A DNA stretch of 58,435 bases, taken from contig JAKPDD010000029.1 of NCBI GenBank assembly GCA_029552945.1, positions 1-58,435 on the forward strand, written 5' to 3'. Source of the stretch: Spirochaetota bacterium (GTDB lineage Bacteria; Spirochaetota; GWB1-36-13; JAKPDD01). The position numbers and the translations under genes are program-made. Under the pieces are notes generated by a model. It searched no databases, was not told the DNA's origin, and saw only the letters and a program-made list of their open reading frames with translations. Each line of letters opens with the position of its first letter. Position 1 is the stretch's first letter. Below, in pieces: positions 26,403 through 57,198 of the stretch.

Positions 26403-29400
26403 ATGGATATTGGGCTTTATGTTATTAATTCATTAATTACTTTGTTTATTGTTCTTGTCATAAGAGGTATAGATAAGAAAAAGTGGTCTTCTTTAAAAAT
26501 TCAGGAGTTTGTAAGAAATCAGATAGAAATTTTGAATAAAAAAATAAAACAGAAAGAGGATGATCTTAATAATTCTTATCTTGAACTTGAAAAAATGGTT
26601 TCTCAAGGAAAGAGTGTTGGGATTCTCCTTAAAGAAAAATTGGATGATCTTGATAAGAGATTAACTTACATAGATAAATTCCGCTCAAACATTGATTCAA
26701 CCTTTAATCAGATCAGTGATATTAAAAAGTTTGCTGAGGAATCTTTTGAAAAGGTAAAAAATCTTGAAAAAGATAAAGAGAAGATAATTAAATTACAGAC
26801 TGATTTTTCTAATATTGAAAAGGGTTATAAAAATGCTATTATAAATTATAAAAACATAGAATCAGAGTTTTTAAAAGAGATTGATGCTAAAAGAAGAGAA
26901 GTTGATGCAAAGATTATTGAAATTACAAATACAATAAAAGATAATAATGAAAAAAGGATATCAAAAATAATAGATGGATATAAAAATGCTATAAGAGCAT
27001 GGGTTGATGATAATAAAAATGATATAGAAAATATTATAAGTAGGTTAAAGTCTTCTGAAGAGATTATTGAAAAAATTAAAGTGACTAAGTCTAAAGAGAT
27101 TGACCTTGAGTTAAAAAATAGACTTATTGAGTTTAAGAATGAGTTTGAAGAAATTAAGAATAATTTTTCTAATGATTATCATAAGATAAAAGATGAGAAC
27201 TCTCAATTAATAAAAGATATACAGAAAAACATTATAAATATTAATAATCACATAACAAATATTGCTTCATCTGCTAAAAATGAGTTTGTTAATTTAAAAA
27301 ATGATATGCAGAATATTGAAACAATGTTTAAAAAAGATATTGATACTTATGTTGATTCTATTTATAAAAAGATATCTGGTTTTGAAAGTAGTTTACAGAA
27401 AATAGATAAAATAGCAGAAGATCATGAAAAAAGGATATCAAAAGAGGTTGAGAGTAGGATCTTAAGGATTGAAACAGAAATAAAAAATAAGTATATGGAA
27501 ATAACAACAAAGTTAGAAAAGTTTGAAAATAGTATTACTCAAACAATGGGTAATGTTGAAGAGAGGATAAAAAATATTATATCTAGAGTAATAAATGATG
27601 TTGAATCTCACAAAAATAGTTTAAATAGCAGTGTAAAGGATGTAGAAAAGTCTGCTTATAGTGTATTGGCAAGACTTGAGGATGAGGTTTCTAATAAAGT
27701 TAAAGTATTACTTGAGAATTATGAGAGGGATAAAGAAGATATAAGGAAAAAGATGAGTGATCTTAATCTTGAGATAAACAAAATAGCTACATCTTTTAAA
27801 ACTGATGTTAATTCTGATCTTGATAGCTTTAAAAGAAGTATTGAAAAAGAAAAGAAAGAGTTTATTACTGAGATAAATAATTCAATTAATAAGATTGAAG
27901 AAAAGATAGAGTCGAAAACAAGTGAGTTATTCAGTAGTCTTAAGAATTATGAAGACGAATCATTGAGGTTTGAAAAGAAAATTAAAATCATAGAGTCTAA
28001 CATAAATAGAGAAGTTGAAAATATTATTGAAAGAATTAAGTCTAAAGTTAAAGAGGAGCATTCAAAGTCTCTTGTTGAACTTGAAAACTTTAAGTCTGTA
28101 TTTAGTCAAAACTTTTCTAATCTTGATAATAATATAAAAACTATTAGTGAAAATCTTGTAAATAAAATAGAAGATGTTAAAAAAAGTAGTTTTGATAAAG
28201 TAAAAGATATCGAGTTAAAAGTTGAAAAGACAGTTATTGAACTTGAGTCAAAAATAACAAATAAGGTTAAAGGACTTGAGGCTATTTATACTGAGGGAAA
28301 AGAGGAGATTGAGAATAATATTAAATTGATGAATAATAAAATACAAAGTTTTATTGAAGAACAGAAAAATGATATAGAAGGGCAGTTAGAGTCTTTTAAA
28401 TTAAAAGTAAAGTCTATAACTGATGATATAATAAATAAATATCATGAATCATCTAATCAAATAAACGGTTATAGAGAAAAATTAAAGTCTGATTTCGAAG
28501 AAAACGTTATAAAACCTTATAAATATATTATAGACCAGGAGGTTGAAAAATTAAGGTATAGTATAGAATCTATAAAAAATGAATCTTCAAGAAAAGCAGA
28601 AGAGACTATAAATAGTATAAGAAAAGCAACTGATGAAATTAAAAAAGAGTTTGAAGATAATATTACAAAGAATAAGCATAATCTATCAATTAAAATTGAT
28701 GATTATGAAAAGAGTATAGTTGCAACTATTGACACTAATAGGAGAAGGTTTGAATCTCTTTTTAAAGAGATGCAAGAAAAACTTGAAAAACAGAGAGAAG
28801 AGGCATCTGAAAAGATAAATGAAATATTCAAGACAGAGATGAAAAAAATTGATGAGGTGGAAAATAAAATAAAAGACTTATCATTTAGGATTGATAATGA
28901 ACTTGGAAGGTATGATAGCAATCTTTCAGCAAGCATAGAGGAGATTAAGAAGAAACTTAATAATGAACTTACAGTTATGGAAAATAGTATAAGTGAAAAA
29001 GAGAAGATTTATATTTCTAGGTTAGAGGATAGAGCAAATATAGTTTCAAATAGGATTTCTGATGTTGAAGATAAAATAAAGGATATGAATAAGGTAATAT
29101 ATGAAGAAGTTGGAAAAACTGCTGAGAGTATAAAAAGAGAGATAGAAAACATGAAAAATGGATTCTTAAACTATGTTCAGGATACTATTAATAGTCTAAA
29201 TAAAGATATTGAACCTATAAATGAGGCTATAAAACTACTAAAAGATGAAGCTGTTTCTGTTGAAGATAAACTTGCAAAACAACTTAATAATAGAGTTGAG
29301 TTTTTTGAAATGAGGCTTAAAGAGATAAATGATAATATTGAACACTTTGTGAATGATAAGAGAAAAGAGATAGAGATATCATTGTCTCAAAAGATAAAAG

Positions 29401-30452
29401 AGGTTAATAGTAAGATAGATCTATTTGATAAGAGGTTATTAGAGATTAAAGTATCAAGTGAATCAGAGATAAAAGATGTTATAGAAATGCTTAAAAAAGA
29501 CCTTAATGAGTTTGAAAGTAAGTTTAATAGGTTTAAGAATGATAAAAAGATTGAGAAACTTTTAAGTGATATAGCAAATATTGACGGATTAATTAAAAAA
29601 GTGCAGGTTGAGAAGGATTCAATAGTTGAAGTTGAAAAGAACTTTATGAAACTTAAAAAGGATACTGAAGAAATTTTAAATGAGATAGGAAAGTTTGGTG
29701 TTAAAAAAGATGAGATAACTAACCTTAATCAGAAAATAAATGATGTTGTTGCAAAGTCGAGAGAAATAGATGAGAGAATGAATGCTATAAACAAATACTC
29801 TGGAGATATTGCACAGGTTGAGGTAAAGATGAAAAGATTACAGGATATGTATAAAGAGCTTGAAGAAAAGGCAAGGGTAATTGAGTCAAAAGAGTTCAAA
29901 ATCAGTGATATATTAAATAAGATGGAAATTAATAACAGAATTGCCGAAGAAATAAAAGATGACTATACAAAACTTAAGAAAGAAGTTGAAACAGTACTGA
30001 AAAAAGCTGATGTTGCTAATGATTACATAAAAGAATTACAGTTAAGAATTGAAGAAGTTAAAAAAGGAGAGGATAAGATAGATACAGTACTATCAAGATT
30101 TAGCGAGATTGAACCTCTATCTATGGATATAGAAACAAGGATAAAACAGCTTGAAAAAGCTATAAATAAACTTGACACATCAGAGGCTAGAATTAAAAAA
30201 TTACTTGAGCTTGTCGATTCACCTGACTTATTAAAGAAGGCGAAAAACGTAAAAAATAGTTTTGATACACATGATTTTAAGTTTGATTCTGCTAATAGTT
30301 ACGAGGGGGTTATTAAAAATCTCTCACCATCAAAAGTTGATTCTATTTTAAAGTATAAAAAAGAGGGTTTTAGTAAGGATGTTATAGCTAATATACTTGA
30401 ACTCAAACAACAAGAGGTTGAAGCTGTATTAAACTTTTATGCAAAGATATAA
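26403..30452 (+). CDS. Giant membrane-anchored coiled-coil protein
   Basis: 1349 residues. One N-terminal transmembrane helix (about 5-22, INSLITLFIVLVI) is followed by about 1250 residues of almost unbroken heptad-type coiled coil rich in Lys, Glu, Ile and Asn, with recurrent IEN/EIKNKI patterns. The last 60 residues are different: a compact helical end with LSPSKVDSILKYKKEGFSKD and LKQQEVEAVLNFY, resembling a helix-turn-helix-like tail. Long coiled-coil proteins of this shape are known in spirochaetes; I infer a filament, spacer or shape role. AGGGAGGGG before ATG. Followed by parA. Confidence 0.75.
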   Translation: MDIGLYVINSLITLFIVLVIRGIDKKKWSSLKIQEFVRNQIEILNKKIKQKEDDLNNSYLELEKMVSQGKSVGILLKEKLDDLDKRLTYIDKFRSNIDSTFNQISDIKKFAEESFEKVKNLEKDKEKIIKLQTDFSNIEKGYKNAIINYKNIESEFLKEIDAKRREVDAKIIEITNTIKDNNEKRISKIIDGYKNAIRAWVDDNKNDIENIISRLKSSEEIIEKIKVTKSKEIDLELKNRLIEFKNEFEEIKNNFSNDYHKIKDENSQLIKDIQKNIININNHITNIASSAKNEFVNLKNDMQNIETMFKKDIDTYVDSIYKKISGFESSLQKIDKIAEDHEKRISKEVESRILRIETEIKNKYMEITTKLEKFENSITQTMGNVEERIKNIISRVINDVESHKNSLNSSVKDVEKSAYSVLARLEDEVSNKVKVLLENYERDKEDIRKKMSDLNLEINKIATSFKTDVNSDLDSFKRSIEKEKKEFITEINNSINKIEEKIESKTSELFSSLKNYEDESLRFEKKIKIIESNINREVENIIERIKSKVKEEHSKSLVELENFKSVFSQNFSNLDNNIKTISENLVNKIEDVKKSSFDKVKDIELKVEKTVIELESKITNKVKGLEAIYTEGKEEIENNIKLMNNKIQSFIEEQKNDIEGQLESFKLKVKSITDDIINKYHESSNQINGYREKLKSDFEENVIKPYKYIIDQEVEKLRYSIESIKNESSRKAEETINSIRKATDEIKKEFEDNITKNKHNLSIKIDDYEKSIVATIDTNRRRFESLFKEMQEKLEKQREEASEKINEIFKTEMKKIDEVENKIKDLSFRIDNELGRYDSNLSASIEEIKKKLNNELTVMENSISEKEKIYISRLEDRANIVSNRISDVEDKIKDMNKVIYEEVGKTAESIKREIENMKNGFLNYVQDTINSLNKDIEPINEAIKLLKDEAVSVEDKLAKQLNNRVEFFEMRLKEINDNIEHFVNDKRKEIEISLSQKIKEVNSKIDLFDKRLLEIKVSSESEIKDVIEMLKKDLNEFESKFNRFKNDKKIEKLLSDIANIDGLIKKVQVEKDSIVEVEKNFMKLKKDTEEILNEIGKFGVKKDEITNLNQKINDVVAKSREIDERMNAINKYSGDIAQVEVKMKRLQDMYKELEEKARVIESKEFKISDILNKMEINNRIAEEIKDDYTKLKKEVETVLKKADVANDYIKELQLRIEEVKKGEDKIDTVLSRFSEIEPLSMDIETRIKQLEKAINKLDTSEARIKKLLELVDSPDLLKKAKNVKNSFDTHDFKFDSANSYEGVIKNLSPSKVDSILKYKKEGFSKDVIANILELKQQEVEAVLNFYAKI

Positions 30453-44834: not shown

Positions 44835-45995
44835 ATGAAAAATAAATTTCTAATATTTATTTTTTTACTATTTTCATTTGTTCTTATGGATTGTTCAAAA
44901 AATAGTATTCTTAATGATGCTCTTTATTTTTCTCAGCCTATTGAGGAAGATGCAGCACCTACTATAACTAAGCCTGATAACTATGATTGGAAACTTGATG
45001 GTATCTGGGTAATTGGTGGTAGGAAAGATACAACAAATCTTATTAATACTATTGATGTTTATGATCCTTACGAGGATGAGTGGCATGAAAATGTAACTAC
45101 TTTGCCTATACCAACACCTGTCAGGAATGCTTTTATAACTTCATATTATGATTATGCTACAGGGCATTACAAAATATATATCATGGGTGGTATTAATTCA
45201 GGTGGTGCAGTTATAAATACAGTTCAAGAATATAATGTAACAACTGATACATGGACAACACTTCCTGCAGGTGATAATGTCCCAGCATCTGCTCCTAAGC
45301 AGGGTGGAGGGGTTGTTAAACTTAATTCAAATATATATATTTTTGGGGGTTCTACTGCAAATAGTGCTGCAAGCCCTGTTCAGACAGCTTTTATGTTTAT
45401 GCCTTATAATAGTAGCGGTTCAAGATGGAGTGCTAGTATGGGTAATATGATTGCAACAGCTTTATCTGACTTTGGATTTGTTATTTTAGATGGAGAGATT
45501 ATAGTAGGTGGGGGGAGGACCAATGCTGGAGCACCAACCAATCAACTCTCAGGGTTTTATCCTACTTCAAAACTTGCTATTGCTGCTACTAGTTTTAGTG
45601 TTCTTAAGGTTTCAAGATATGGACTTTCTGCTAGTGTTTACTATGATACTTCCATTGGTACAGCAAGAGTATTTTTTATAGGCGGTACAAATGTTACAAA
45701 TACTGGACAACCACCAGTAACTTTGGCTGTTACTTCTAAAGTTGATATATATGTGCCTTATTCTGAAAATGGTATAAGGGTTATGGTTGATGGGCCTAAT
45801 TTAAACCAAGCAAGAGCTTATCATTCTTCTGTTACTAAAGGGAATTATATATTTGTGTTTGGTGGGTTAATAAGTAGCAGTACCTTAACTAACAGTGTGG
45901 AAAGACTTAATGCTTCTTCTTCTAACCCGAGGTGGAGATTTGTAAAACCTATGCCTACTCCAAGATATGGTTTTTCTGCTATTACTTTAAGGTAA
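44835..45995 (+). CDS. Kelch-repeat lipoprotein A
   Basis: 386 residues. Leader FLIFIFLLFSFVLMDC gives a lipobox. Kelch blades: GIWVIGGRKDTTN, YDPYEDEWHENVTTLPIP, KIYIMGGINSGG, YNVTTDTWTTLPAG, IYIFGGSTANS, EIIVGGGRTNAG and IFVFGGLISSST, ending in KPMPTPRYGFSAITL. A six-bladed propeller is likely. Paralogue of the next gene, 12 bases downstream. Surface or periplasmic binding role inferred. Confidence 0.82.
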   Translation: MKNKFLIFIFLLFSFVLMDCSKNSILNDALYFSQPIEEDAAPTITKPDNYDWKLDGIWVIGGRKDTTNLINTIDVYDPYEDEWHENVTTLPIPTPVRNAFITSYYDYATGHYKIYIMGGINSGGAVINTVQEYNVTTDTWTTLPAGDNVPASAPKQGGGVVKLNSNIYIFGGSTANSAASPVQTAFMFMPYNSSGSRWSASMGNMIATALSDFGFVILDGEIIVGGGRTNAGAPTNQLSGFYPTSKLAIAATSFSVLKVSRYGLSASVYYDTSIGTARVFFIGGTNVTNTGQPPVTLAVTSKVDIYVPYSENGIRVMVDGPNLNQARAYHSSVTKGNYIFVFGGLISSSTLTNSVERLNASSSNPRWRFVKPMPTPRYGFSAITLR

Positions 45996-46007
45996 AAGGA
46001 GGTTTTT

Positions 46008-47120
46008 ATGAAAAGTAAAGGTATTTTTATACTTTTTTTTATGTTTCTTTTGATCTCGTGTAGCTACAATAAAGAAATATTAGATATAGCTCATGAGGCT
46101 TCTATTGGAAGTCAAGAGACAACAACTATACCGCTAGAAGTGAGGATGAGAGGAATATGGCTTGTAGGAGGTTCAAGTTCTGTTACAACTTTAACCCCTA
46201 TAAGTGAAGTGGATCTTTACGATCCTGTCGAAGATAAATGGTATGAAAATATAACTCAATTACCAATACCTGTGGTCTTTGCAGGTATTACTGCAACAAA
46301 TGGGAAAATATATGTAATTGGGGGAATGAAAAATTCAGATGAACTTGTAAGAAATGTTCAGATTTTTGATATAAAGACTCATAGCTGGAGTTATGGACCA
46401 GATTTTCCTGTTGCTGTTCAGGGATTGAAAGCTTTTGCTATAGGTTCTAATATTTATACTGTAGGCGGTAGTTTTACAAATGATTCAACAGGTGCAATAT
46501 CCAAGATAATGAAATTTAATAACCTATTTAATTTCTGGCTATCTCTTTATGATATAGGTGGTAATAATACATACTATCGTCTTGATGGTGGTGTAGCTGT
46601 ATTGGATGGTGTTATGTTTTATGGTGGTGGAAGGGACTTAAATGGGGCATATCAAAATACAAACTATCTACATTATGTATTAGATTACGTTTTAACTGCA
46701 ACCGGTACTGCTTTGACACAACAGAGGTTTGCTCTTGCTTCTGCAGCATATAGTTACCAAAACAAGTTTTATGTATTTTTTATAGGTGGTATTTATGCTA
46801 CTGGGATAACAAATCAACCTGCTATTTCTACTCTTGCTCAAAACACTGTTTATTATTATATTCCTGCTATTGGAGCTTCAGCTCAGTCTATAAATACAGG
46901 ACAAAGCTTAACTAAGCAAAGAGCTTATCATACTGCAGTGTGCTGGGGTCATAATATTTATGTTTTTGGTGGTATTTATAATACAACAGTGTGGGATGAC
47001 TTTGAGGTTTTGAAGGACTTAAATACTGCTTCAATCGCCTCAGCTCCGTGGGTATCCGCCGGTGTTATGCCAAGATCAAGGTTTGGTGGTGAGGCAGTAA
47101 CTTTATACAAGATAAATTAA
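46008..47120 (+). CDS. Kelch-repeat lipoprotein B
   Basis: 370 residues. Leader GIFILFFMFLLISC with lipobox LLISC. Blades: GIWLVGGSSSVT, YDPVEDKWYENITQLPIP, IYVIGGMKNS, FDIKTHSWSYGPDFP, IYTVGGSF, VMFYGGGRDLNG, IYVFGGIYNTT, end MPRSRFGGEAVTLY. Clearly related to kelch lipoprotein A, including VDLYDPVEDKWYENIT versus IDVYDPYEDEWHENVT. AAGGAGG before ATG. A recent tandem duplication is likely but the sequences have diverged. Confidence 0.82.
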   Translation: MKSKGIFILFFMFLLISCSYNKEILDIAHEASIGSQETTTIPLEVRMRGIWLVGGSSSVTTLTPISEVDLYDPVEDKWYENITQLPIPVVFAGITATNGKIYVIGGMKNSDELVRNVQIFDIKTHSWSYGPDFPVAVQGLKAFAIGSNIYTVGGSFTNDSTGAISKIMKFNNLFNFWLSLYDIGGNNTYYRLDGGVAVLDGVMFYGGGRDLNGAYQNTNYLHYVLDYVLTATGTALTQQRFALASAAYSYQNKFYVFFIGGIYATGITNQPAISTLAQNTVYYYIPAIGASAQSINTGQSLTKQRAYHTAVCWGHNIYVFGGIYNTTVWDDFEVLKDLNTASIASAPWVSAGVMPRSRFGGEAVTLYKIN

Positions 47121-54592: not shown

Positions 54593-56440
54593 ATGAATCT
54601 TTTTTCCTATGGTACTTTAATGAATAAATCAATAATTAAAATTGTAACAGGCAAGTTGTTTCCTTATAAAAAAGCTGTTTTAAAAGGTTATAAGCTTTTT
54701 TCACCAGATACTGGTTATCCATATATAATACAAAAAGAGGGATACAGTGTTGAAGGGATAGTATATTTTGGAATAGATAGAGAGAGTTTTAAACTTATTG
54801 ATAAGTATGAGGATGAGGGTTTTTACTATAACAGAATAAAGGTTAATGTTGAAACTGAAGATGGAAATATTATTGAATGTTATGTATATGTTGGTAATCT
54901 GTACAATATAAGAAAAGTCTGGAAAGATAATATTGATGTGGATATAATTCAGAGAATTGAAGAGTTTATAGAAAACAAGATAGGTGAGAGGCTTAGTATA
55001 AAGGCACCTGATAAAGAAGATACGGATAAATTGGCAAAATTAGAAATCTTAAAGGCAGACATACATAGATTGGTTGATATATATCTTGATGGTAAATATC
55101 TTTCCAATTATGAGATAGATAATGAGATTAATCTTGTTAATATGCCTAAATTACCTGATATTGATGTAACAAAAGAGGTTTATAAAAATTATATAGGTAT
55201 TATTTATAATGCAACCTGCCTTAATAAAATAGAAGATTATGTGAGCGATAATTTTTCTAAATTACTTTATTATAAATATCCATTATACGAAAAAACATTA
55301 ACTATTCTTGTATCTCTTATTATTTTTAATAAATATAAGCTATATTTTGAAGATAATAAAAAAAATATCTTCAAAGATTTAAAGACTTTAACTTATGTAG
55401 ATGTAGTAAAAAGAGCTATTAAAGACACTCAAATATTTGTTAATTCTCATAAAGATGAAATAGAGTTTACCTCAAAAGAAGTCAAGATGAAACTTAATCC
55501 TGGTATACTTACAATAGGGCTTGAACTTGAATTTAGTAATGTTGATATTGATAATTCTGATAATTCTAATAATATTTCCAATTTACAAATTTTTAAGTCT
55601 GATAAGAAATATAATGGTTTTTTATATTTTCATGATTTTGACCTTTATCGAAGACTCTGGAAGTTGGGTGGTCATATTGATAATCATTCACTATCATCTC
55701 AATTTGAAAAAAACGGTGGTTTTCTTGAAATAACACCAGGAAAAGAGCCTTTTTCTGATTCTTCTTTACCTATTACAAGGTCATTAGGTATTGCAGATGA
55801 TCTTATAAAAGAGATTATAAAGTTTTTTGATAAAGTTAAACCACACAGTTTACACGTTAATTTAGAATATGATGGGGTTATAAACTGGGAAAAAGAAAAT
55901 GATATTGAACTTATAAAGTGTCTTATGCTTGTTGCAGGTGACTTTAAAAAGCTTAAAAATAATAATATTGTTGAGCAGAGATTATATAATAATGAAATAG
56001 TAAAAGACCCATGTGGTGCTTACAGGATAATATGTGAAAATGCACACCATTGCAGGGAAGATAAAGAAAAAACTGTTATTGAATACCAGTTACCAAGATT
56101 GTCTGATGAAAAAGATTATTCTGTTATAATAGGGGCAATAAAAGGATTTCAATTAGGATACAGACCAAGACCATATGGTTCAAAAGTAAGGCTTATAAAA
56201 GAAAAGCATATTAAAAAAGAATCAGATTATATAAAAAAGTGGGCGTTTAATGTTACACCAGTTTCAAATAATACTATAGAAAAGTTTTTGTCATATATTT
56301 ACGAAGGTTTTTGTGTTGAAAGAAAACAGAGACCAGCTCATACTCAAAAATATATAGATGAACTTATGTTTAAAATTGAAAAAGAATTGAAATCTATTAA
56401 TGAGTCTATTTCTTATCCTTTAACTTTTGTTAATAAATAG
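54593..56440 (+). CDS. Gamma-glutamylcyclotransferase/amidoligase fusion enzyme
   Basis: 615 residues. Residues 1-125 are an AIG2/GGCT-type cyclotransferase fold: MNLFSYGTLMNKSI, LKGYKLF, VEGIVYFGI and LIDKYEDEGFYYNR, where E73/E75 match the catalytic Glu region. Residues about 130-300 form a helical linker. Residues 303-610 carry motifs of amidoligases with the glutamine-synthetase fold: GLELEF (309-314), HIDNHSLS (361-368), GFLEITPGKEP (376-386), HSLHVNLEY (418-426) and VIEYQLPRL (495-503). GGCTs cut gamma-glutamyl bonds, amidoligases make amide bonds; a single protein may edit one peptide-like product. 12 bases before a TauE/SafE permease gene. Domain call for the second half is by motif only. 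Confidence 0.72.
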   Translation: MNLFSYGTLMNKSIIKIVTGKLFPYKKAVLKGYKLFSPDTGYPYIIQKEGYSVEGIVYFGIDRESFKLIDKYEDEGFYYNRIKVNVETEDGNIIECYVYVGNLYNIRKVWKDNIDVDIIQRIEEFIENKIGERLSIKAPDKEDTDKLAKLEILKADIHRLVDIYLDGKYLSNYEIDNEINLVNMPKLPDIDVTKEVYKNYIGIIYNATCLNKIEDYVSDNFSKLLYYKYPLYEKTLTILVSLIIFNKYKLYFEDNKKNIFKDLKTLTYVDVVKRAIKDTQIFVNSHKDEIEFTSKEVKMKLNPGILTIGLELEFSNVDIDNSDNSNNISNLQIFKSDKKYNGFLYFHDFDLYRRLWKLGGHIDNHSLSSQFEKNGGFLEITPGKEPFSDSSLPITRSLGIADDLIKEIIKFFDKVKPHSLHVNLEYDGVINWEKENDIELIKCLMLVAGDFKKLKNNNIVEQRLYNNEIVKDPCGAYRIICENAHHCREDKEKTVIEYQLPRLSDEKDYSVIIGAIKGFQLGYRPRPYGSKVRLIKEKHIKKESDYIKKWAFNVTPVSNNTIEKFLSYIYEGFCVERKQRPAHTQKYIDELMFKIEKELKSINESISYPLTFVNK

Positions 56441-56451
56441 AGGAGTTAATA

Positions 56452-57198
56452 ATGATTATATATCTCTTAATATTTTTTGTTGCGTCTATATTATTTACTA
56501 TGGTTGGTTTTGGTGGAGGTAGTGTGTATGTACCATTATTTACTTTTCTTGGTTATAGTCTAAAAGAGTTTTCTATCCCTGCCTCTTTATTTTTAATATT
56601 CCTGAGTTCTTTAGCTGGTGTATCAAACTATTTCAAGCATAAATTAATAGATTATTCTGCTGGGATTAATATTTCAATAAGTACAATGTTTTTTGCATTT
56701 ATTACTAAAATTTTATTTTTTGATAATATTTCAGCTAATTTTTTGTGGGTTATGCTGGGAGTTGTTATAACTATCCTTGGTATTAAAATGTATTTTCCAG
56801 AGACAGGGATAAGATTACATTTTAAAAGTGAAAAGCTTAAAATACTTTACTATATGTTTATAGGAATAATAATAGGTTTTCTTTCAATAAGTATAGGGTT
56901 TGGTGGTGGGTCAATAATGGTACCCTTACTTATTCTCGCAGGTTTTGAAGTTAAGGTTGCTATTGGTACATCATCTTTTATAATAATGATTACTGGCTTG
57001 TCTAATTTTCTTGTTCATTTTTTTACTTCATTTGATAAAAGTAAAATGGGAGAACTTTTTTTGGCATCATTTTTTGTTATTGCTGGTGGGTATTTAGGTT
57101 CACACCTTACTTCTGTTAAAATGAGTAAAAAAAGTATAAGACTTATTATGGCTACTCTTCTTACAGGCCTTGGCATTTATATACTTTTTACTAGGTAA
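56452..57198 (+). CDS. TauE/SafE-family anion exporter-like permease
   Basis: 248 residues with about eight membrane segments and the inverted repeat of the family: FTMVGFGGGSVYVPLFTFLG in the first half and SIGFGGGSIMVPLLILAGFE in the second, then AIGTSSFIIMITGLSN. Relatives export sulfite, sulfoacetate or related anions; the substrate is unknown. AGAGGAG before ATG; directly behind the GGCT-amidoligase gene and probably in the same operon. Confidence 0.88.
   Translation: MIIYLLIFFVASILFTMVGFGGGSVYVPLFTFLGYSLKEFSIPASLFLIFLSSLAGVSNYFKHKLIDYSAGINISISTMFFAFITKILFFDNISANFLWVMLGVVITILGIKMYFPETGIRLHFKSEKLKILYYMFIGIIIGFLSISIGFGGGSIMVPLLILAGFEVKVAIGTSSFIIMITGLSNFLVHFFTSFDKSKMGELFLASFFVIAGGYLGSHLTSVKMSKKSIRLIMATLLTGLGIYILFTR

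Follow-up and report, generated by a model that had tools for sequence, protein, structure and literature searches.

The window analysed here, a stretch of 58,435 nucleotides, forms contig C50 in a Spirochaetota genome of 1.87 Mb; the collection has two genomes of its class, the other being GWB1_36_13. Its plus strand carries a 615-residue open reading frame (ORF) in which a GGACT / AIG2-like gamma-glutamylamine cyclotransferase domain is followed by a helical middle domain and by a C-terminal domain resembling carboxylate-amine ligases of the glutamine-synthetase (GS) fold. An ORF encoding a TauE/SafE-family permease begins after a gap of 11 nt and is preceded by a GAGGAG ribosome-binding site. 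Both ORFs start with ATG and lie where an earlier interpretation of the letters alone (the sequence-only reading) had placed them. The locus consists of the following features, modelled where stated with AlphaFold2 (AF2):

54593..56440, plus strand: whole fusion gene, 615 aa (ORF, full-length homologues)
54593..54898, plus strand: GGACT / AIG2-like gamma-glutamylamine cyclotransferase domain, residues 1–102 (PF06094, E 1.5e-19; YGT(L/M)M-type loop; E73)
55010..55489, plus strand: helical middle domain, about residues 140–299 (AF2 helices; present in 30 of 30 aligned members)
55490..56437, plus strand: GS-fold carboxylate-amine-ligase-like domain, residues 300–615 (AF2, Foldseek, invariant residues)
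56452..57198, plus strand: TauE/SafE-family permease, 248 aa (PF01925, E 4.5e-34; 11-nt gap; the genome's only TauE)

Residues 3–102 match the Pfam hidden Markov model (HMM) of GGACT (PF06094) with an E-value of 1.5e-19 and a score of 71.2 bits, well over the model's 22.8-bit cut-off. The YGT(L/M)M-type loop at residues 6–10, with Y6-G7-T8 invariant, is found in all 15 aligned fused members, as is E73 (within DKYEDEG), which we take to be the known catalytic Glu of GGACT. The domain match, this Glu and the YGTLM loop are shared with mouse A2LD1 and human GGACT, from which the protein differs in having its GGACT joined to a ligase-like domain. The profile match and the conserved motifs bear out the GGACT/AIG2 domain named by the sequence-only reading. 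The single-chain fusion that it proposed is likewise real and not a frame artefact, because full-length counterparts occur in the spirochaete genome GWB1_36_13 (L005, MIAO01000067.1; 51% identity) and in 14 proteins of a phylum in the Planctomycetes–Verrucomicrobia–Chlamydiae (PVC) group, called the PVC phylum below.

A profile built from the two spirochaete C-terminal domains was searched in other phyla, labelled here after the genomes on which the searches were centred: Desulfocapsaceae (Desulfobacterota), Pontiellaceae (NCBI phylum Kiritimatiellota, PVC group) and Symbiobacteriaceae. Relatives occur in 11 of 267 Desulfobacterota genomes (E-values down to 5.5e-34; one of the 11 is only a weak, remnant-like match) and in 14 of 260 PVC-phylum genomes (down to 7.8e-45), and the 250 genomes of the Symbiobacteriaceae-centred phylum gave one weak match (E 0.003) that a deeper family model did not match. 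GWB1_36_13 is the sole relative in the Spirochaetota sample. Weak profile matches there (L037–L049), and one in L050, turned out on inspection to be short chance matches; L050, L051 and L052 were not matched by the deeper family model, and scans of genome contigs and viral contigs returned, apart from GWB1_36_13, GGACT-only genes or nothing. Plasmids gave no match, and phages two chance-level fragments only. Iterated profile searching yielded a family of at least 31 proteins, 30 of which were aligned. Sixteen of them, two from Spirochaetota and 14 from the PVC phylum, are fused in the order GGACT, helical middle domain, C-terminal domain. Of the 30 proteins in the alignment, 15 are fused and as many are matched by the Pfam GGACT model; the sixteenth fused protein (L102) was recognised through the family model. 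In a tree, the two spirochaete proteins fall with the fused PVC proteins, but only when it is midpoint-rooted.

An AF2 model computed with the 30-member alignment reached a predicted local distance difference test score (pLDDT) of 83.3 and a predicted template-modelling score (pTM) of 0.81; a model from two sequences only (pLDDT 36) was unusable. The full three-domain model was compared by Foldseek with 350,542 PDB chains and with a viral library. In the PDB, GGCT/GGACT/ChaC-type structures rank first. The first four matches outside the GGACT fold are Dop (E 0.021, probability 1.00), a glutamine synthetase (E 0.11, probability 0.66) and PafA twice (E 0.13 and 0.16, probability 0.98 and 0.95). 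Next come an unrelated transporter (probability 0.08) and glutamine synthetase again (E 0.20, probability 0.47), after which the matches are random. The viral library returned a phage 'Amidoligase enzyme' with a probability of 0.75.

Six strands make up the core of the GS-fold carboxylate-amine ligases, and conserved helices follow the third and the sixth. Its signature residues are GhExE (ExE/H) in strand 1, an acidic position in each of strands 2 and 3, the motifs [HD]x[NH] in strand 4 and Ex[RK]x2D in strand 6, and two arginines, one on strand 5 and one in the loop before it (Iyer et al. 2008, PMC2588565). The model reproduces this core order, with strands at residues 308–314, 360–363, 377–380, 417–425, 480–487 and 491–498 and helices at 398–411 and 509–522; strand order was taken from the secondary structure of the model, and the spatial order of the sheet was checked through Foldseek only. 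Strand 1 presents GhExE as G309-L-E311-L-E313, in which G309, E311 and E313 are invariant in all 30 aligned members and position 310 is Ala/Ser in PVC members. D363 and E379 provide the acidic residues of strands 2 and 3, strand 4 reads H421-x-N423 in the spirochaete and Desulfobacterota members, and R463 may correspond to the arginine in the loop before strand 5. These two acidic residues and R463 are invariant 30/30, as are H418, H421, E497 and R502. By its predicted fold and most motifs, the C-terminal domain is superfamily-like; we do not assign it to Amidoligase_2 or PafA.

Family models and sequence libraries were silent on the same region. Residues ~140–615 gave nothing beyond chance level in Pfam, NCBIfam, PHROGs or PDB sequences, and the protein had no defence-system match. 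The Amidoligase_2 model PF12224, which does detect genuine amidoligases elsewhere in Spirochaetota, had no match at E ≤ 10 in the genome of the window, nor any in GWB1_36_13. Alignment by hhalign with seven Amidoligase_2 proteins was not significant, its weak alignment pairing the strand-4 His motifs. We therefore rejected membership of Amidoligase_2 on sequence, and the match of residues 300–615 to an amidoligase HMM that the sequence-only reading had looked for is missing. Its impression of a GS-fold ligase stands on other grounds, namely the deep-alignment AF2 model and the strand-by-strand motifs, which contradict, at the level of fold, the possibility that these residues lack an amidoligase fold. 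The middle domain (about residues 140–299) has its counterpart in the N-terminal region of the unfused homologues; its invariant positions across the 30 members include Y169 and L239.

Those unfused homologues, the Desulfobacterota proteins, measure 476–529 residues as called, have no GGACT part and form two groups in the tree, clade A and clade B. At nine of ten clade A loci, a separate GGACT gene of ~225 residues is the tail-to-tail neighbour, with spacing from a 75-nt overlap to a 172-nt gap (the count includes a split gene in L088); at the tenth, the GGACT gene lies 2.8 kb away. Fusion in two phyla and adjacency in a third provide strong evidence for a functional link between the GGACT and ligase-like domains, in agreement with the coupling that the first interpretation had supposed. 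This pattern is observed directly in the sequences, as are both domains and the residue conservation, and the fold is observed in the model.

PVC loci share the gene order accA, GNAT, fusion, murI, with a GNAT gene directly upstream of the fusion in 11 of 14 and the glutamate racemase gene close behind the fusion in 9 (conserved order at L091, L092, L093, L094, L097–L100 and L102). Three of four GNATs tested score above the cut-off of NF005840 and the fourth just below it; these proteins also give sub-threshold matches to the model of N-acetylglutamate synthase (TIGR01890), in its acetyltransferase part. Because the PVC fusion sits between an N-acetylglutamate-synthase-like GNAT and glutamate racemase, this operon context suggests glutamate as a substrate, short of proof.

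The permease ORF of the window matches TauE/SafE (PF01925) with an E-value of 4.5e-34 and 118.6 bits against a cut-off of 32.6, and is the only TauE gene in the genome. Co-transcription of the fusion and TauE in the window is plausible. No TauE was found in the flanks of 13 scanned fused PVC loci, in the 5.6 kb upstream or 386 nt downstream of the fusion in GWB1_36_13, or beside the Desulfobacterota clade A loci. A conserved TauE partnership of the fused homologues was rejected on its absence from the scanned PVC flanks, and the make-edit-export operon put forward by the sequence-only reading is not conserved at the other fused loci scanned. Homologues are thus mostly not adjacent to transporters, with an exception in clade B, where a convergent TauE gene runs into the end of two syntenic genes and is 4.3 kb away from a third. 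A link to TauE/SafE may exist, given its single copy in the genome of the window and these clade-B neighbours; an export role is a guess.

Taken as a whole, the protein is probably a bifunctional enzyme that both forms and cleaves a single kind of gamma-glutamyl amide. We infer ATP-dependent ligation, with glutamate as the acid substrate and a substrate shared by the two domains. The enzyme would be cytosolic. With ATP and metal ions bound by E311, E313, E379, H421, E497 and the like, its C-terminal domain would phosphorylate a carboxylate group, most probably that at the gamma position of glutamate, and the activated group would then be joined to an amine. The GGACT domain would cyclise off the gamma-glutamyl group by way of E73, its presumed catalytic residue, releasing 5-oxoproline and the free amine. 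Both activities may act on the same pool to protect and deprotect, or to tag and untag; a shared pool would account for their fusion in some phyla and their adjacency in another. A bolder version is a long shot: an undescribed branch of GS-fold ligases would add glutamate or a glutamyl tail, via the gamma-carboxylate, to cellular amines or lysines, and the GGACT eraser in the same chain would complete a self-contained, reversible gamma-glutamylation switch.

Several observations weigh against the make-and-break enzyme. The GS-fold Foldseek E-values are weak (0.02–0.2), in part because the query has three domains, and no significant sequence link connects the C-terminal domain to any GS-superfamily family. 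We call the domain superfamily-like because it departs from the published motifs on three strands: PVC members carry HxS, not HxN, on strand 4; on strand 6 the [RK] position at +2 from E497 is not conserved (Q/A/S/K) and the invariant Arg is R502, at +5, giving E-x4-R with no Asp at the last position of the motif; and at position 482 on strand 5 the two spirochaete proteins have Glu, against Arg in 27 of the remaining 28. Such a Glu could mark altered substrate use. In Desulfobacterota, no GGACT is linked to clade B, whose members are paralogues present in six of the genomes that have clade A, and the ligase-like/GGACT pairs are convergent and hence not one operon. Making and breaking by a single polypeptide could be futile in the absence of regulation or of different substrates, and the enzyme that gave the best fold match, Dop, is itself a hydrolase. 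In the main rival explanation, the Dop-like C-terminal domain would be a GS-fold hydrolase or ATP-dependent amidase, and both domains would break gamma-glutamyl amides, for example in salvage to glutamate or 5-oxoproline. Dop, a depupylase, is the closest solved fold, and it shares that fold with PafA while the two catalyse opposite reactions (PMC8599861; PMC7947786). Most GS-superfamily enzymes are ligases, however, and strand 6 carries E497 as ligases do, as opposed to the [QH]x4D of the PafA family (PMC2588565); we consider this rival unlikely.

It is more doubtful that the protein serves a thiol or sulfur gamma-glutamyl cycle, in which the ligase would make gamma-glutamylcysteine, gamma-glutamyltaurine or a similar compound, GGACT would break it and TauE would move the sulfur product. 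GCS2 belongs to the same superfamily (PMC2588565), the genome's single TauE/SafE gene follows at 11 nt, and TauE abuts two clade-B paralogues; set against this, TauE is missing near the other fused homologues and clade A, the C-terminal domain has no sequence similarity to GCS families, and the neighbourhoods showed no further gene of the glutathione pathway. Slightly less probable still is that, in the spirochaete protein, one domain is degenerate and serves for binding or regulation. Replacement of a near-invariant Arg by E482 in both spirochaete proteins would fit such a loss, but the other invariant acidic, His and Arg active-site residues and the GGACT catalytic Glu are kept, and the pair is 51% identical over its full length.

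Related pairings are on record. GS-like ligases beside Aig2-family cyclotransferases have been described in Firmicutes (Iyer, Burroughs and Aravind 2008, PMC2588565), and amidoligase and cyclotransferase gene pairs occur in prophages (PMC11318856), with examples in the present data at L021–L024, L032 and L034. The present family shares the order of GhExE, acidic and HxN/H active-site motifs with the CJD_1902 family (Clostridium perfringens, GS-like ligases with neighbouring Aig2/GGCT; PMC2588565) and with phage Amidoligase_2 (PF12224) beside GGCT. It differs from both in its sequence, which neither PF12224 nor any further Pfam ligase family matches, in its physical fusion, in the extra helical middle domain and in the strand-6 E-x4-R; unlike phage Amidoligase_2 it is cellular, with no relatives found in the viral collections. 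PafA and Dop share with it the predicted fold, as its best non-GGACT matches, the GxExE start and, on the favoured reading, chemistry on a gamma-glutamyl carboxylate, whereas identity in the fold alignment is 7–10%, the fused GGACT is particular to this family, and E497-x4-R502 stands in place of their strand-6 [QH]x4D. A further parallel comes from butirosin biosynthesis, where BtrJ adds a gamma-glutamyl protecting group that the cyclotransferase BtrG later removes. The add-then-remove logic and the GGCT-type remover are common to both; BtrJ has an ATP-grasp fold, not a GS fold, and the two butirosin enzymes are separate proteins of an antibiotic cluster.

Amidoligase_2 genes were encountered at several other loci. 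Those at L021–L024 and L032, in Spirochaetota genomes, are genuine (frames of 317–367 aa), and a small GGCT-like gene follows directly; in L023 and L032 a phage-terminase-like ORF (named by eye) comes next, so these pairs are probably of prophage origin. At L025:530-2391, an Amidoligase_2 protein (1384–2391) overlaps an ORF for a class-I glutamine-amidotransferase-like peptidase (530–1516, named by eye), a pairing reported for proteobacteria (PMC2588565). At L027/L034, two proteins that combine a Cys-rich, zinc-ribbon-like part with Amidoligase_2 stand in tandem, and an AIG2-like gene ('YGTLMRG') lies a short way downstream. Elsewhere in the window, 26403–30452 encodes a 1349-residue repetitive, coiled-coil-like protein whose Pfam matches are only to apolipoprotein-type and Baculo_PEP_C models, and 44835–47120 holds two neighbouring Kelch-repeat proteins (386 and 370 aa), followed by an HD-domain protein and FlhA.

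What is new here is a divergent family, absent from Pfam and NCBIfam, that is physically joined to GGACT and present in genomes of three phyla. It adds a GS-fold family, found in at least three phyla and unnamed in the family libraries searched, whose fusions and gene neighbours tie it to gamma-glutamyl-amide chemistry, and it offers in a single gene a target for assaying make and break activities together. If the make-and-break reading is true, the fusion would represent a gamma-glutamyl make-and-break pathway and would extend the recognised ligases beyond Amidoligase_2, GCS2 and PafA.
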